Positions 42,601 through 45,177 of a stretch of 64,000 bases of DNA are shown here, piece by piece (the stretch's first letter is position 1; each line of letters opens with the position of its first letter). The notes below the pieces were generated by a model that was not told where the DNA came from, did no database searches, and saw only the letters and a list, made by a program, of their open reading frames with translations. The stretch covers positions 1 to 64,000 of the IMG/VR virus record IMGVR_UViG_3300044640_003674. The stretch is one strand, 5' to 3'. The position numbers and the translations under genes are program-made. The DNA is from a virus.

Positions 42601-43746
42601 GATGTGAAGCGTATCTGGGGTCTGGACGGTATGTGGGTTCACACCGACAGCTTGGACATCATGTTCGGCTATCGGGCAGCATCTGCTGCTGAGTTCCTGC
42701 GCAAGGACAAGGAAGCCCTCAACGGTATCCAGGCTGCGATGCGTGAGTGGTTCCACGGCATGGCAAAGACCATGGGCAAGAGCGACGAAGAGGCAAACAA
42801 CCTGGCCAAGAAGTGGGGCTGGCAGTTGGCCAAGGGCGAGGAAGCCTGGAAGGAGATCGTCAAGGAGATGAAGGACATCATCGTGGTGAAGTCTGGCATC
42901 GTGATGCTGAACAACATCCGATCGAACTTCACCCAGCTGGTGCTGTCAGGTGTCCCGGTGAAAGACATGGTTCGTCATCACCTCGTTGGTATGCGTGGTG
43001 CCATGGCCTATGAGCGGGACTTCAATGAACTGCAGCGTCTGGAGACACTGCTGGCAGTGGACTACACCATTGAAGGTCAGGCCAACATCGAACGACAGAT
43101 TGCCAAGCTCAAAGACTCTCTCGCACGTAACCCTGTGCGTGAGTTGATCGAGGCTGGCTTGATGCCGACTATTGTTGAAGACGTTGCTGCAGATGATGAC
43201 CTGTACTCGTACAAGTCTGTGCTGGCTTCGAAGGTTGCTCCGCTCACTCAGCGAGTTCCTGTGCCCTTGCGAGATGCGGCCAAGACGGTCTATATGGCAC
43301 ATGACACCAAGCTGTATGGTGCTCTGAACCGTGTTGCTCGACTGTCTGACTTCGTGGCTCGCTATGCCTTGTATCAACACCTGACCACGCGAGCAGTTGA
43401 TCAGATGACTTCGGAACAAGCTATCCAGCGTGCTTCTGAGACATTCATCAACTACGACATTCCAATGCACCGCGGCATGCAGTACCTGGACAGCATGGGT
43501 CTGTTCATGTTCACCAAGTACTTCCTGCGTGTGCAGCGTGTTCTGGCTCGTACATTCAAGGAGAGCCCTGGTCGAGTGTTGGGAATGATTGCCGCAGACT
43601 ACTTTGCGGACGTTGGCCCCAACGTGCTGGAAGGTTCTGCAGTGAACCACTTTGGTGATAACCCATGGAGGTGGGGTGCGTTCCAGTTCCCTGGAACTCT
43701 GGACAAGCTGGCTACTGTTGCAGTGCCTATGTCGATCATCAAATGA
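33634..43746 (+). CDS. Virion-encapsidated RNA polymerase (N4 gp50)
   Basis: This 3370-residue protein is injected with the DNA and transcribes early genes from hairpin promoters. The central T7-like polymerase domain lies at roughly residues 950-1850. It has an RVG element near 1281-1283 (TxxGR-like), motif A GEVDGVANG with Asp1421, motif B with Arg1513, Lys1517 and Tyr1525, and motif C NIHDAL with Asp1791. The R-K-Y spacing is identical to T7-family enzymes. A Ser/Thr/Pro/Glu-rich linker lies around residues 745-890. Beyond the polymerase, HELLH (2068-2072) and an EF segment with Glu2124 suggest a zincin fold. Long helical C-terminal regions follow. ATG 33634 has GAGAG nearby; an in-frame ATG at 33664 has no site. 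Confidence 0.96.
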   Translation: MRAVNLLAPNMSDFDSSSYFKKKIDSLNLPKGFAIQEAMQRKVADLQEYQVAVAAGRALTSPDRTVGDIAGDVAITAAKSAIGLPESIVGIADIPTGGRVGKFIEENTPIQFKKTKEILDSGLSDAQKEANLRVQLAEGFGGTIEAALDNPSVIATTVGESLGSMIGGAAAARKILGVGAKAVSAGAGATGPVLPGVLARKVGTDLAPVIAGAVGEGILGAGSAASQIRGETEDGLLTPKQALSAVGSGAGTAVLGFAGGKLAQKLGVPDLDTALAAGTVKSPAGFLKAVVGAGISEGVFEEMPQSAQEQVWQNYALDKPLLEGVDKASAMGLLAGVAMGSGTGVAGALAPSDAAKRKRNDRDEDPAREAVLETASKTGNVDALLNIKSKDYSPENAVLALLAHAKNPETSGEQRATNLSKAQEVMAGLERQRDAARSELELESPEGLAAKLGQVQEVIASAPEEDRALYEEMLAELQARQVEMDTNPDRTQAIKALTDQISGLDGQISKARQSVDQIAGLVSAPEQVSADMALLSQAVNTQDSDAVAAQQQAAERIINLSMASPDRVDRAQALALVKTAGNALTNQQRAYLRAFSDARVADNLAKDADVVSSDIWRGSSKGAEVKYWGIKQYRREIAAAIAAGDQAKATRLLAQMQSFNTDHSQKARLLSKVKDGQQIMRTDAGWVVNTGKRLTNAERDANGAFTKNSDEVVGKIGREASVLRAATAELAAAVTLKFPTTAGDINVPNSAQSTNPSTGQSRSTQSASGQAATSEGQSESAGAAAPVAAGNGVDSQSTGVGVSDSTPVAQKAEKTQETATEVQSTTTQDPVEVIEESNQNDTAISEAPAAPTQDQLAESVEDAPLDELSAESAEASSTETQPGTLAAVLEKGPEGATFFDKRLGDFVAQVGKSRPLVAVKDFMDEVRAGKKKITDFLPDTELSDDQKNVIRLLSGKLRQWSDPIKKNLRPRDKFQHEDPIRFLTGSGDLEQNVKTAMVAAAFTWLNDEIRRKSNTDEAINALLGRDSDHQVSLAERNLFNEGSYQSTVAEALGQRIIAALGFKAFKDAPQDILPKLKMSLGSHALALLEQQGMVESFTVPDSVIRRMRGEDLEVAEQGGKPDLDHTFYKLVQDSKEVLDITDTMAGTKGILDKLFGIESSQIRPSLAPVKGVQKTTDTGMGVPNALQKVVRQNQTKNERHLNTGPMDVLAKLDEELALAIAGVVRPDEHTHGAKRRSIEAKNDGLAREYKNFMEFVLEDLVQGEGKDKGFFYRYDVWKQQRVGIKTNVGNPQTSKIARWLTYSKAWNTEIRFDDTNLMTGFMLRVAEGLGVKTERGASELSVAKAEAALKQPEMVAGVAAIRAALDGADLSAEQQAAVVAAVKAAGEKMHSLAALVAWAQHQAAKEAGQEAFTTNLMGEVDGVANGTMLNHVLYGAGTDGLLERGGFFTLDSKFRQFNLWRGTPGNLDIYEATAKKISQYIASMSDLGQLTGAIWSVIGNPVDTEGNATKDGRTLVKSALNPLNYGSGFNSVKRNLAGEFIESIYSAFEDFSSGKRPSVTKPESLNDFVQQLNVLLAQTKNTRLLPINEPASFYLEANVLSYKQIDALESVYTGIVGQAVEDVVGVEFGGFMASTKQLIKTTQLTYDLFNAVYQAEREKLIADLGIPTRKKRDAEGVPVHDLTAEQEGELRSRLASIMPLMHTAMSQRDDNYRNGILLAKRELQRAPNNSYEVEVTFGQKIKNGQHTMTVRPQVMGQAGPGVLAVSAGTHSTDSAISHDTQDGRPILNIHDALGGGVGGLAEMTTAFNKATFENLLAYSPLRAGHNALARVVTGLAKMHSDGQLSDQALANIKKVLKSGKSLDKALQDSFEAALLADRSKLDIMSRWAVVDQYPMDNNGYQVTDADRKRVNTLAANLAPDVAPLTQAASEVLNQALGFKAEKKAPAQKPAAKQSNWGTVGTPTAAPNPLLLSLLQGKGKVSAKSVVETLQGVQWRNPGYKLLLDLVAKALPDNLTVQMVDTSTPVDQVIEMPKMPSKAWMVSGSGRNEIYFLGPEFAASAMTPETLLHELLHGALARYLVDLSSGKVKDPDAQALVAELEKLLERARKHELADKYQAALSNLDEFISWGMTNAAFQADVLTKLRVTHKSSQNKWLSGMQDFMRNLTQLMGKALGRKLNGEAVNGLGLLVANVTGLVKAAEQQKAGDPAEATLNLSMAAVDDYTTSQIFQALNEPSKPLEPAFESQLSRMLGGIVNTLHGPFGAFAAAVRGYAPASPLDAWLVAQQNGLVPFSSEVAANLPASQQELFVIEQIEATVKAALQDNAALTKVAYKELTEVFSEAQQTLKPSDFKDPAHYDFIFGVKAAGSDGKSDYLARFAALALAHQGLNKLLQVPSKKTRNISDGKTLADKVEIAFEKILGFFSRMATKTFDGQRLDSKVQTLVEQLVSIEAKQREAIKDQQARKDFLAPVEEMVKTGRDAVMSKLEAAAGSEFFRNAKSGAVRGGAALVRTVAMNRQEEFLKQFQDYRDNTLNERGGFLSSILNEVVGQKEFAEKALRVVKHFENRRKGVIDGTSKMALESFINEGKDLTEEAKAALTRVFMRTGAHTLMGRYDFTQLQSMLTDRAAILKEVAAIEAAFPAKLRRLYVGQAQALGLHKATGLVEGLVMPNAHVIARMLGTPYQQQIDADQAAAHEDGVKALITLYALLHTDKASKTEAAQVLAKELARDDGGNGVDFLLKATRQFEQDSLERLFAGNPVLMQHGYTPEIYNPHTDIKVVTAEEGQKLAAQGYTAHSKLSEDPADPDSESKQIFVRSGAALARWESGVMSLTDVGTKGTTIHNGFTNPKHPDGAQNASRQAAVTQAKMNLLRQPLGPHRDMSKTAKSGLVPVYNEQGKIVNWRYLMREQTKDVVLQRNNRFEDVLGTYAGSIFDKTGTPKNNLAAIQALKTQYDADGSVRRLKGYHLVGPDSPDAELRTIWGLLPEQAKADVKRIWGLDGMWVHTDSLDIMFGYRAASAAEFLRKDKEALNGIQAAMREWFHGMAKTMGKSDEEANNLAKKWGWQLAKGEEAWKEIVKEMKDIIVVKSGIVMLNNIRSNFTQLVLSGVPVKDMVRHHLVGMRGAMAYERDFNELQRLETLLAVDYTIEGQANIERQIAKLKDSLARNPVRELIEAGLMPTIVEDVAADDDLYSYKSVLASKVAPLTQRVPVPLRDAAKTVYMAHDTKLYGALNRVARLSDFVARYALYQHLTTRAVDQMTSEQAIQRASETFINYDIPMHRGMQYLDSMGLFMFTKYFLRVQRVLARTFKESPGRVLGMIAADYFADVGPNVLEGSAVNHFGDNPWRWGAFQFPGTLDKLATVAVPMSIIK

Positions 43747-43750
43747 GTTT

Positions 43751-43842
43751 GGGCATTGAAGGTGGGGGTCGAACCCACAAGAGGTGCTTATTTCCTCCGG
43801 CCCGCTGAAGGGCCTACGGTTACCAATTTCGTCACTTCGCCC
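43751..43842 (-). tRNA. Aberrant class II tRNA-like element (Leu-CAG-like)
   Basis: Read on the minus strand, the element has a canonical T arm (GTGGG, loop TTCGACC, CCCAC). It has a D arm (ACG/CGT around a loop containing TTGG), a long variable arm (GAGG/CCTC) and an anticodon-like stem GGCCC/GGGCC with CAG in the loop. Two features are abnormal. The anticodon loop has six (or eight) bases instead of seven. The acceptor pairs GGGCGAAG with CTTC and GCCC across an inserted AAT, and CCA is not encoded as such. It could be a decaying tRNA-Leu or a tRNA mimic belonging to the adjacent structured RNA. Confidence 0.45.
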
Positions 43843-43843
43843 A

Positions 43844-44630
43844 GGGGAGTAGCGATCCCCCCTATCCAACCTCAGTGTGCCCACTGGGGTTGAAGTCTTG
43901 TTTGTTGCCAGCTGCCGCAGTTTCATCCCGGCTGGCGCGTGATCTCATGACCGATCAGCGGCTTTCATTTGATGGTGGCCGGTACTGATCTCCGGCTTGC
44001 TCCGTCTCGCAAGGCTTATTTCATCCAGGCTCGGCAGCAGGTAATCACGCGCATCAGCCTGCGCATTCACCATCATTGAATCACCCTCGCCACATCCCCA
44101 TATCCGGGGAGCTGTCTCGAACAGGGATGGTTACCTGCCGTCTAGTGTTGCTGAGCGCTCAGCACGAAGGCGATTCGATGATGGTCCCAGTCTTTCCTGG
44201 GTGTCAGCACTCTCTACAGACCTTGTGGCTATGCTTGCCTACCGTCACGTCCTGTAGTCGACGCCCGAGCTTTAGACGACTCATCTCGGGAAAGCTGTGT
44301 TTATGGCAGTACGTTGCCAGCCCGTCAGCGGGATAGTTGAAGGGTTCCCAGATTCGCATGCGGCAGCGTTACAGGGAGGTTGATCTGGAGATCACTACGA
44401 GGCCAAATCCGTAGTTCTAGGTCCCCTTCGAGGGTGTGGACCAATAGGGCGCCTCATTTATTCGCCCCCATTTCACCGGCTAGCACGGATAGAGGTAAGT
44501 CACTTGGCAGCTACTTGGCACAGGCCCACCTGCTCGAATGGCCTTTGTCACTCCATGCCTGGAGCGCATTTCACTGTTGCTGGCTTGATCCACACTCTCG
44601 AAGAGCCCCGTCTTTCCGGGGTGTCATGAG
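43844..44630 (-). ncRNA. Candidate large structured non-coding RNA
   Basis: Nearly 800 bases without a credible gene lie between the convergent vRNAP and leftward operon. They are packed with stems: GGGGA/TCCCC (43844-43860), CCTCAGTG/CACTGGGG (43870-43889), GCGCA/TGCGC (44049-44064), a 14-base palindrome (44150-44163), CCCAG/CTGGG (44186-44201), CCCG/CGGG (44321-44332), CTCCA/TGGAG (44551-44564) and CCCCG/CGGGG (44606-44621). CCCGAG, CTTT, CTCGGG and AAAG at about 44263-44294 fit an H-type pseudoknot. The region lies next to a tRNA-like element, as large phage RNAs of the GOLLD and ROOL classes do. Strand is inferred from the tRNA and the leftward operon. The assignment to a known class is unproven. 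Confidence 0.55.
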
Positions 44631-44635
44631 ACTTG

Positions 44636-44827
44636 TCACCCTCTCTTGCGAGAGGATCTGTCGAAGTAGTTTCTCAGGGTGATGCCGACATAGATGACAG
44701 CAACCACCCCAGAGAAGATCAGGCCTCCGACGAAGGCCACTGCCGAGAAGGCAATGGCCACCCCTACAACTCCTGCCACGATAGCGATACCGAGCAGGAT
44801 GAAGAGGATGGTCTTGAGCCAGTGCAT
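44636..44827 (-). CDS. Small membrane protein, 63 aa
   Basis: ATG 44827 follows closely on the upstream stop; a TTG three bases earlier is less likely. The product MHWLKTILFILLGIAIVAGV has two glycine-rich hydrophobic segments (ILFILLGIAIVAGVVGVAIA and FVGGLIFSGVVAVIYVGIT) and a basic tail (RNYFDRSSRKRG). It is the last gene of the leftward operon before the structured RNA. It is holin-like in topology, but nothing else supports that role. Confidence 0.65.
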   Translation of the reverse strand: MHWLKTILFILLGIAIVAGVVGVAIAFSAVAFVGGLIFSGVVAVIYVGITLRNYFDRSSRKRG

Positions 44828-44832
44828 CAAGA

Positions 44833-45177
44833 TCAGTTGAAGAGGCTTGCGACAGCCTTCGGCTGAACTTCAGCAGCTGCTTCTTCGACCTTCGACTCAG
44901 CTGCAGCAGGAGCCTCTTCTGCTTGAGGAGCAGCTTCCGGTGCAGCCGTGGCCACCACCGTCAGGGCAGGTGCCGAAGCAACTGCCGGTGCCGCGGTGTC
45001 GTCATCGCCGAACGGGATTGCCGAGTCTTCGATGCTGATGTCCGCGGTCAGGCCACCTTCCTTGCGGCCAGCAGTGAAGGTGATCTCCACTTCCTTGCCG
45101 GCCAGGTTGATGCCCTGGGTCGTGATGTACTGCTTCAGTGCAGCTTGGATTTCGACCTGCTTGAGGTTGATTTGCAT
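44833..45177 (-). CDS. Hypothetical protein with Ala/Glu-rich tail, 114 aa
   Basis: The first 55 residues form a small beta-alpha domain (MQINLKQVEIQAALKQYITT, then VEITFTAGRKEGGLTADISI). A low-complexity Ala/Pro/Glu segment follows, and the protein ends KAVASLFN. The tail resembles those of SSB-like proteins that present a short C-terminal peptide, and the nearby SSB ends similarly (QSLFA). It lies in the replication operon; the function is unknown. Confidence 0.72.
   Translation of the reverse strand: MQINLKQVEIQAALKQYITTQGINLAGKEVEITFTAGRKEGGLTADISIEDSAIPFGDDDTAAPAVASAPALTVVATAAPEAAPQAEEAPAAAESKVEEAAAEVQPKAVASLFN

Follow-up and report, generated by a model that had tools for sequence, protein, structure and literature searches.

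The gap between two convergent operons of an N4-like phage encodes a structured RNA on its minus strand, a conclusion that is confirmed, as far as sequence comparison can do so, by compensatory base changes at two places, a first domain (unit 1) and the core of a second unit (unit 2). The window, by which we mean the whole 64,000-nt stretch of DNA analysed here, derives from a 68-kb virus record. The plus strand ends in the gene for a 3370-aa virion RNA polymerase (vRNAP; PHROG E 5e-255) with its stop at 43746, and the minus strand carries a gene for a RuvC-like resolvase, a 114-aa gene and a 64-aa gene (44636-44830). Since the vRNAP and 64-aa genes flank it on opposite strands, the gap at 43842-44635 is convergent, in keeping with the original prediction of an approximately 0.8-kb space between two such operons that is devoid of credible genes; a handful of ORFs of 37-100 aa is present, none of them credible. 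The reality of the RNA is established for its fold, while its transcription is inferred only from strand bias and from terminators in relatives. Read leftwards, the region is composed of the following parts:

43842-44635, minus strand: whole structured non-coding region, 794 nt, with two units each headed by a P2 hairpin
44606-44626, minus strand: first P2, UGACA-CCCCG-GAAAGA-CGGGG, then CUC instead of ACC; the stem covaries across phages and genomes
44425-44607, minus strand: unit-1 domain, a long closing helix with inner hairpins, aligned with relatives L045 and L021
44584-44603 with 44425-44442, minus strand: unit-1 closing helix
44551-44564, minus strand: unit-1 inner hairpin with a conserved AGGCAU loop
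44255-44331, minus strand: part of the middle stretch, about 75 nt of which resemble other phage loci, L392 and L405, in sequence
44183-44206, minus strand: second P2, UGACA-CCCAG-GAAAGA-CUGGG-ACC
44171-44185, minus strand: strand a, ACCAUCAUCGAAUCG, the 5' side of arm P3; pairs with b
44081-44170, minus strand: variable arm P3 (predicted fold), holding the palindrome GCTGAGCGCTCAGC (44150-44163)
44066-44080, minus strand: strand b, UUCAAUGAUGGUGAA, complementary to a and to c
44049-44064, minus strand: P4 hairpin, GCGC[AGGCUGAU]GCGC, whose loop GCUGAU kisses P5
43997-44048, minus strand: variable arm V between P4 and P5, 12-165 nt long across cores
43978-43996, minus strand: P5 hairpin, GCCGG[AGAUCAGUA]CCGGC, whose loop pairs with the P4 loop
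43966-43977, minus strand: strand c, CACCAUCAAAUG, the alternative partner of b
43867-43892, minus strand: 11-bp hairpin CAACCCCAGUGGGCACACUGAGGUUG near the 3' end (predicted fold)
43750-43842, minus strand: tRNA-like 3' element with an acceptor helix bearing an AAU bulge, an anticodon-like hairpin and a T arm, the D arm being absent

A search of IMG/VR with the RuvC-like protein found 80 relatives, in nearly all of which the gene order is kept where the contig reaches, with a non-coding interval of 0-1250 nt at the same site. Terminator-like hairpins with U-tracts close this interval in L022, L029 and L046, and a scan for sigma-70 promoters gave matches no better than chance. The interval also houses a gene for an H-NS-like DNA-binding protein in L029 (7077-7514; Pfam Histone_HNS, E 1e-8) as well as in L009, L010, L011, L020, L022, L039 and L046.

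For the 794 nt of the gap, the predicted folding energy of the minus strand is -316 kcal/mol, with a z of -4.5 compared with -3.7 for the plus strand. Sub-windows of 200 nt are mostly ordinary, the single outlier from the phage's own range being the second unit (z -4.55); fold energy alone is therefore weak, suggestive evidence, and covariation has to decide. Homologues without covariation would have refuted the predicted RNA, and covariation was found instead, so that the proposal of a large ornate phage non-coding RNA beside a tRNA-like element is supported by compensatory changes in unit 1 and in the unit-2 core. The long palindrome on which the proposal partly rested is indeed present in arm P3, and its likely pseudoknot proved to be a conserved kissing loop between 44049-44064 and 43978-43996.

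The alignment of unit 1 comprises three sequences only, namely 44425-44607 of the window and the same-site relatives L045 and L021. Within it, 32 of the 52 consensus pairs have both bases replaced in one or more of the sequences, compared with a mean of 12 in shuffles and 3-6 in slid controls, and none of 500 shuffles reaches 32. This alignment also served to predict the structure, which is thereby favoured over its slid versions, yet no shuffle attains its score. Judged by these double changes, the evidence that unit 1 folds as RNA is strong even with three sequences.

When the second unit was compared with all loci, a series of ordered parts emerged that is common to distant phages: P2, strand a, a variable arm, strand b, P4, a second variable arm, P5 and strand c. 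This complete order was found again in L145, L313, L357, L466, L485 and L504. Pattern scans of IMG/VR located P4 in at least 120 stretches and P5 in at least 86. Across 59 distinct cores, 98.7% of cells pair and 14 of 23 pairs are changed on both sides, compared with 6.6 in shuffles (0 of 500), and slides abolish the signal; the helix formed by b and c (b.c) has double-sided changes in seven of its eight pairs, and G-U pairs occur as intermediates in the core helices. Because pairing in P4, in P5 and in a portion of b.c was a criterion for choosing the cores, and some were retrieved with patterns in which P4 or P5 is fixed, the paired percentage is in part built in and the real variation is larger than observed; the double changes, which establish the fold of the core, are not a product of this selection. 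The core model R1 scores 86.6 bits at 43970-44075 of the window, which was in the seed, and it is matched by loci found by P2 alone (L091, L111, L145, L181). A generic structure descriptor without sequence had no more matches in the loci found with RuvC than in shuffles.

The loops of P4 (GCUGAU) and P5 (AUCAGC) are able to pair in all 59 cores, in the window through five Watson-Crick pairs and one G-U pair. Joint changes of both loops give ACUGAU/AUCAGU (eight distinct cores) and GGUGAU/AUCACC (L313). Covariation of the kissing loop rests on two pairs, as the other four of the six are invariant. Strand b has a second potential partner in strand a: 16% of cores have a.b helices of 13 or more bp, whereas shuffled upstream DNA yields 0.6%, and in the predicted fold of the window both a.b and b.c form locally. 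These alternative pairings are established as sequence complementarity. Because they are mutually exclusive, we infer that one of three things applies: partner switching, processing of the RNA, or intermolecular pairing.

The P2 hairpin (consensus UGACA-NNNN-GGARAGAC-NNNN-ACC) has two copies in the window and none in 100 shuffles, and is present at the same site in many relatives. Scanning of IMG/VR revealed at least 120 stretches with P2, and among the matches listed nearly all stems are fully complementary. In bacterial genomes, where the stem was left unconstrained, all four pairs form in 42% of distinct matches, compared with 6.9% (maximum 13.6%) when the partners were shuffled. P2 was also found in unannotated gaps of named phages, and it follows the direction of transcription, lying on the same strand as the upstream gene in 74 cases against 36 and as the downstream gene in 84 against 32. 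The PHROG families of its neighbours disclosed no constant partner gene. A P2 hairpin likewise lies in the 3.5 kb of unannotated DNA before the terminase genes of Cronobacter phage ESP2949-1 (L205:241-3806). Perfect-stem copies outside Proteobacteria, in a Clostridia MAG (L228), a Pedobacter (L266) and a Spirochaetaceae bacterium (L240), make P2 seem to cross phyla. The supposition that every P2 opens an a.b arm was rejected, since only about a tenth do; isolated P2 hairpins are followed by an a.b arm of 9 or more bp in about 8% of cases, compared with 1% in shuffled sequence.

The tRNA-like element next to the region had been pointed out in the original prediction and is real, albeit degenerate. 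ARAGORN calls it tRNA-??? (no readable anticodon) at 43752-43841, and the Rfam tRNA-Sec model reaches 18.8 bits where its gathering score is 47; without a D arm and a readable anticodon, it was rejected as a canonical cloverleaf tRNA. Homologue searches found none for this element and none for the 11-bp hairpin at 43867-43892, while the middle stretch has only weak ones (nhmmer E 1e-4 and 1e-3 for L392 and L405). Linkage to tRNA is also seen elsewhere: phage ZC03 has an annotated tRNA-Arg flanked by strands a and b, its strand b being complementary to c along ten pairs, the variable arm of L145 is occupied by a tRNA-like body, and the core or P2 is also linked to tRNA in P1-like plasmids, MD18 and Pokken. 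The enrichment of T-arm-like hairpins directly upstream of P4 is no more than mild, which makes tRNA cargo a minority case. The core is flanked by tRNA-Thr and tRNA-Ile in L531 (2418-3350) and in the P1-like Escherichia phage RCS47; the RCS47 record includes it in the putative lipoprotein gene plp, an annotation that may be spurious. Besides, modules with two T-arm-like hairpins (GGUUCGAUUCC) linked by CGNUUGNCGAG..GGUA were noted in L012, L044, L058 and L102; they are reminiscent of half-tRNA mimics and reappear in phages unrelated to one another.

Core and P2 are shared by many phages and prophages that are otherwise unrelated, including P1-like phage-plasmids, HK629 and Schitoviridae tRNA arrays, a breadth that is observed directly in their sequences. 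One core variant is carried by 840 of 5,426 complete E. coli genomes (15%), on chromosomes and on P1-type plasmids of about 97 kb, and a similar stretch occurs in 132 phage records, among them HK629, HK633, mEp460 and ZC03. The exact core pattern was found in only 2 of 296 genomes of one order, so the core is apparently a trait of phages and prophages and not of their hosts. Identity is 90-99% in 21 pairs of blocks, 91-210 nt long, from the N4-like relatives, whereas the ruvC genes of the same phages are 75-84% identical, and these near-identical blocks occupy different positions. On the basis of these identities, modules are exchanged between N4-like phages; the exchanged modules are bounded by short inverted repeats. 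One block of about 100 nt, CAAGCUGGAUUG...AGAACGCCUGGAG...CCAGCAGAACGGCGUGACA with P2 at its end, is found in L007 (7489-7588), L022, L003, L011 and others at up to 99% identity between relatives. Another module, GGCGTATGGCACATGCGTCG...GTAGCCGGAATGTGCAAGTC, recurs in enterobacterial prophages (L335, L343, L115), and GCGAAAGCGGATGCTG...CAGACGCAGCGAGTAGC recurs near the core in L346, L361, L364 and L377.

Membership in the GOLLD or ROOL class, which had been inferred from general traits, could not be upheld. No Rfam 15 family reaches its gathering score anywhere in the window; at E values up to 10, the interval 43700-44900 gives only the weak tRNA-Sec match, with no GOLLD and no ROOL. The search with GOLLD and other covariance models thus returned no match, and no Rfam family lies on the motif at gathering score in the relatives or the other P2 and core loci. 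Gathering-score matches across the loci are tRNA, C4, isrK, DUF805b and an IS frameshift element, none of them on the motif (in 18 core loci only tRNA, C4, isrK and an IS element), and sub-threshold matches look like chance.

Nevertheless, likenesses to both classes exist. GOLLD and ROOL RNAs are characterized by their location in phages, vicinity to tRNA islands, kissing loops and a linker with tRNA as cargo (PMC12286853). The present RNA shares with GOLLD large size in phages and prophages, a frequent vicinity to tRNA islands, an occasional tRNA in a variable linker, kissing loops and an unknown function, and shares with ROOL the phage origin, tRNA islands, conserved kissing loops and a variable linker (PMC12286853). 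It differs from GOLLD in that its conserved core consists of P2 and the P4-P5 kissing loop and in that its units are far smaller and are repeated and shuffled as modules. Proximity to tRNA islands with a tRNA in the linker is met by the core's relatives, whereas the window has only the tRNA-like element. The GOLLD pattern of a universal 3' region and a variable 5' region is not met, as the units are repeated and shuffled and the 3' end has no homologue. From ROOL it is set apart by module exchange and by the lack of an Rfam match or a common core sequence; the P4-P5 loop does covary as a ROOL kissing loop should (double changes in two of six pairs, four invariant), but its sequence is not that of ROOL. 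The stable T4 species 1 and 2 RNAs (rnaC and rnaD), likewise of unknown function and beside a tRNA cluster, are comparable, rnaC also containing a T-arm-like stretch; identity was rejected, as the T4 region has neither P2 nor a match to the R1 core. The Pas sRNAs of E. coli, compared from the literature only, are not the same RNA. A literature search, with most subscription papers outside its scope, did not find the motif sequence or a described family. The best reading is of a new, modular, tRNA-linked phage RNA resembling GOLLD and ROOL, with its function inferred.

We surmise that a trans-acting, stable, structured RNA is built of P2-headed units with exchangeable arms, a view on which we are evenly divided. 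Leftward transcription, itself inferred, would yield a non-translated RNA of at least two such units and the tRNA-like 3' element. Each unit may serve as a scaffold with a shape fixed by P2 and the P4-P5 kissing loop, and the cargo of its two variable arms would be exchangeable, being a tRNA or a tRNA-like body in some phages. By pairing with a, strand b would close the P3 arm, and by pairing with c the kissing-loop domain; it might switch partner during transcription or after arm processing, or pair between molecules, which would let units multimerise. By analogy with GOLLD and ROOL, the RNA would most likely act in trans, holding or presenting tRNA-like cargo and contacting a host component conserved in many bacteria, for which the translation machinery is our first guess. 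Transcription, switching, multimerisation, trans action and the partner are all inferences. The trans scaffold is favoured because of its size, tRNA linkage, variable-arm cargo, kissing loops and the absence of a fixed gene partner. Further points in its favour are the covariation of unit 1, core, kissing loop and P2, the a.b helix, the recurring full order, co-directionality, terminators and module shuffling. Against it count the absence of transcript or partner data, the minority status of tRNA cargo, isolated P2 hairpins mostly without an a.b arm, the missing or weak homologues of the middle stretch, the 3' hairpins and the tRNA-like element, and the pattern-fetched cores.

The strongest rival, though an unlikely one, is control in cis, in which nascent leader or intergenic hairpins act on transcription elongation or termination in the manner of HK022 put, or process or stabilise the mRNA at operon junctions. 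P2 is frequently located in gaps, whether ahead of a start codon or behind cI and other regulator genes, Q-like antiterminators and major head protein genes, as well as in the late leader of IME1369_02, and several isolated copies directly precede a ribosome-binding site, copies for which a cis role fits better. Adjacent P1 and P2 hairpins recall put, itself a pair of adjacent hairpins in the operon leaders of a phage, and helices ending at the U or UG of UGACA are enriched. However, the window's RNA is much larger, branched, and placed where an operon ends and a convergent gene follows, with a terminator right after it in relatives; the PL and PR leaders of HK022 contain no P2 even with three mismatches allowed, which excludes identity with put; and a simple leader can hardly explain multi-unit arrays with exchangeable arms.

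Still less probable is a decoy, in which tRNA-like or other arms titrate host defence nucleases or RNA-binding defence proteins and are swapped as hosts differ. The degenerate element of the window, the tRNA gene or tRNA-like arm of ZC03 and L145 and the fast exchange of modules among relatives would suit such a role, but the scaffold is conserved far more than the arms, most arms lack a T arm, and the PHROGs of neighbouring genes indicate no link to defence. The N4 vRNAP uses hairpin promoters, and together with the inverted repeats bounding the exchanged modules this raises the idea of a DNA-level element, such as a hairpin promoter or recombination site; we hold it very improbable, given that P2 follows transcription, G-U intermediates occur in the helices, and the motif is also present in phages that are not N4-like, e.g., P1-like and lambdoid ones. 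Unannotated small genes with structure as a by-product of composition, to which the few ORFs and the unremarkable fold energy of most sub-windows might point, are scarcely tenable in view of the dozens of pairs with compensating changes on both sides, the shuffling of modules and the variable length of the interval, and are refuted for the covarying parts.

Returning to the trans scaffold, a broader version of it can be put forward only tentatively: a cross-phylum RNA construction kit of P2-closed or kissing-loop modules that are few in kind, arrayed and shuffled between phages, carry tRNAs among other cargo, and are assembled or switched by strand exchange between a.b and b.c. If true, this would amount to a modular RNA superfamily, beyond one more ornate RNA. 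A kissing-loop RNA scaffold with strong covariation has remained unannotated in P1-like phage-plasmids, HK629, HK633, mEp460, Schitoviridae and, as one variant, in 15% of complete E. coli genomes. As these carriers include laboratory model systems, its expression, structure and function are testable at once. Should the RNA act like GOLLD and ROOL, the function of large phage RNAs would become approachable in E. coli, and such RNAs would prove able to evolve by module exchange.
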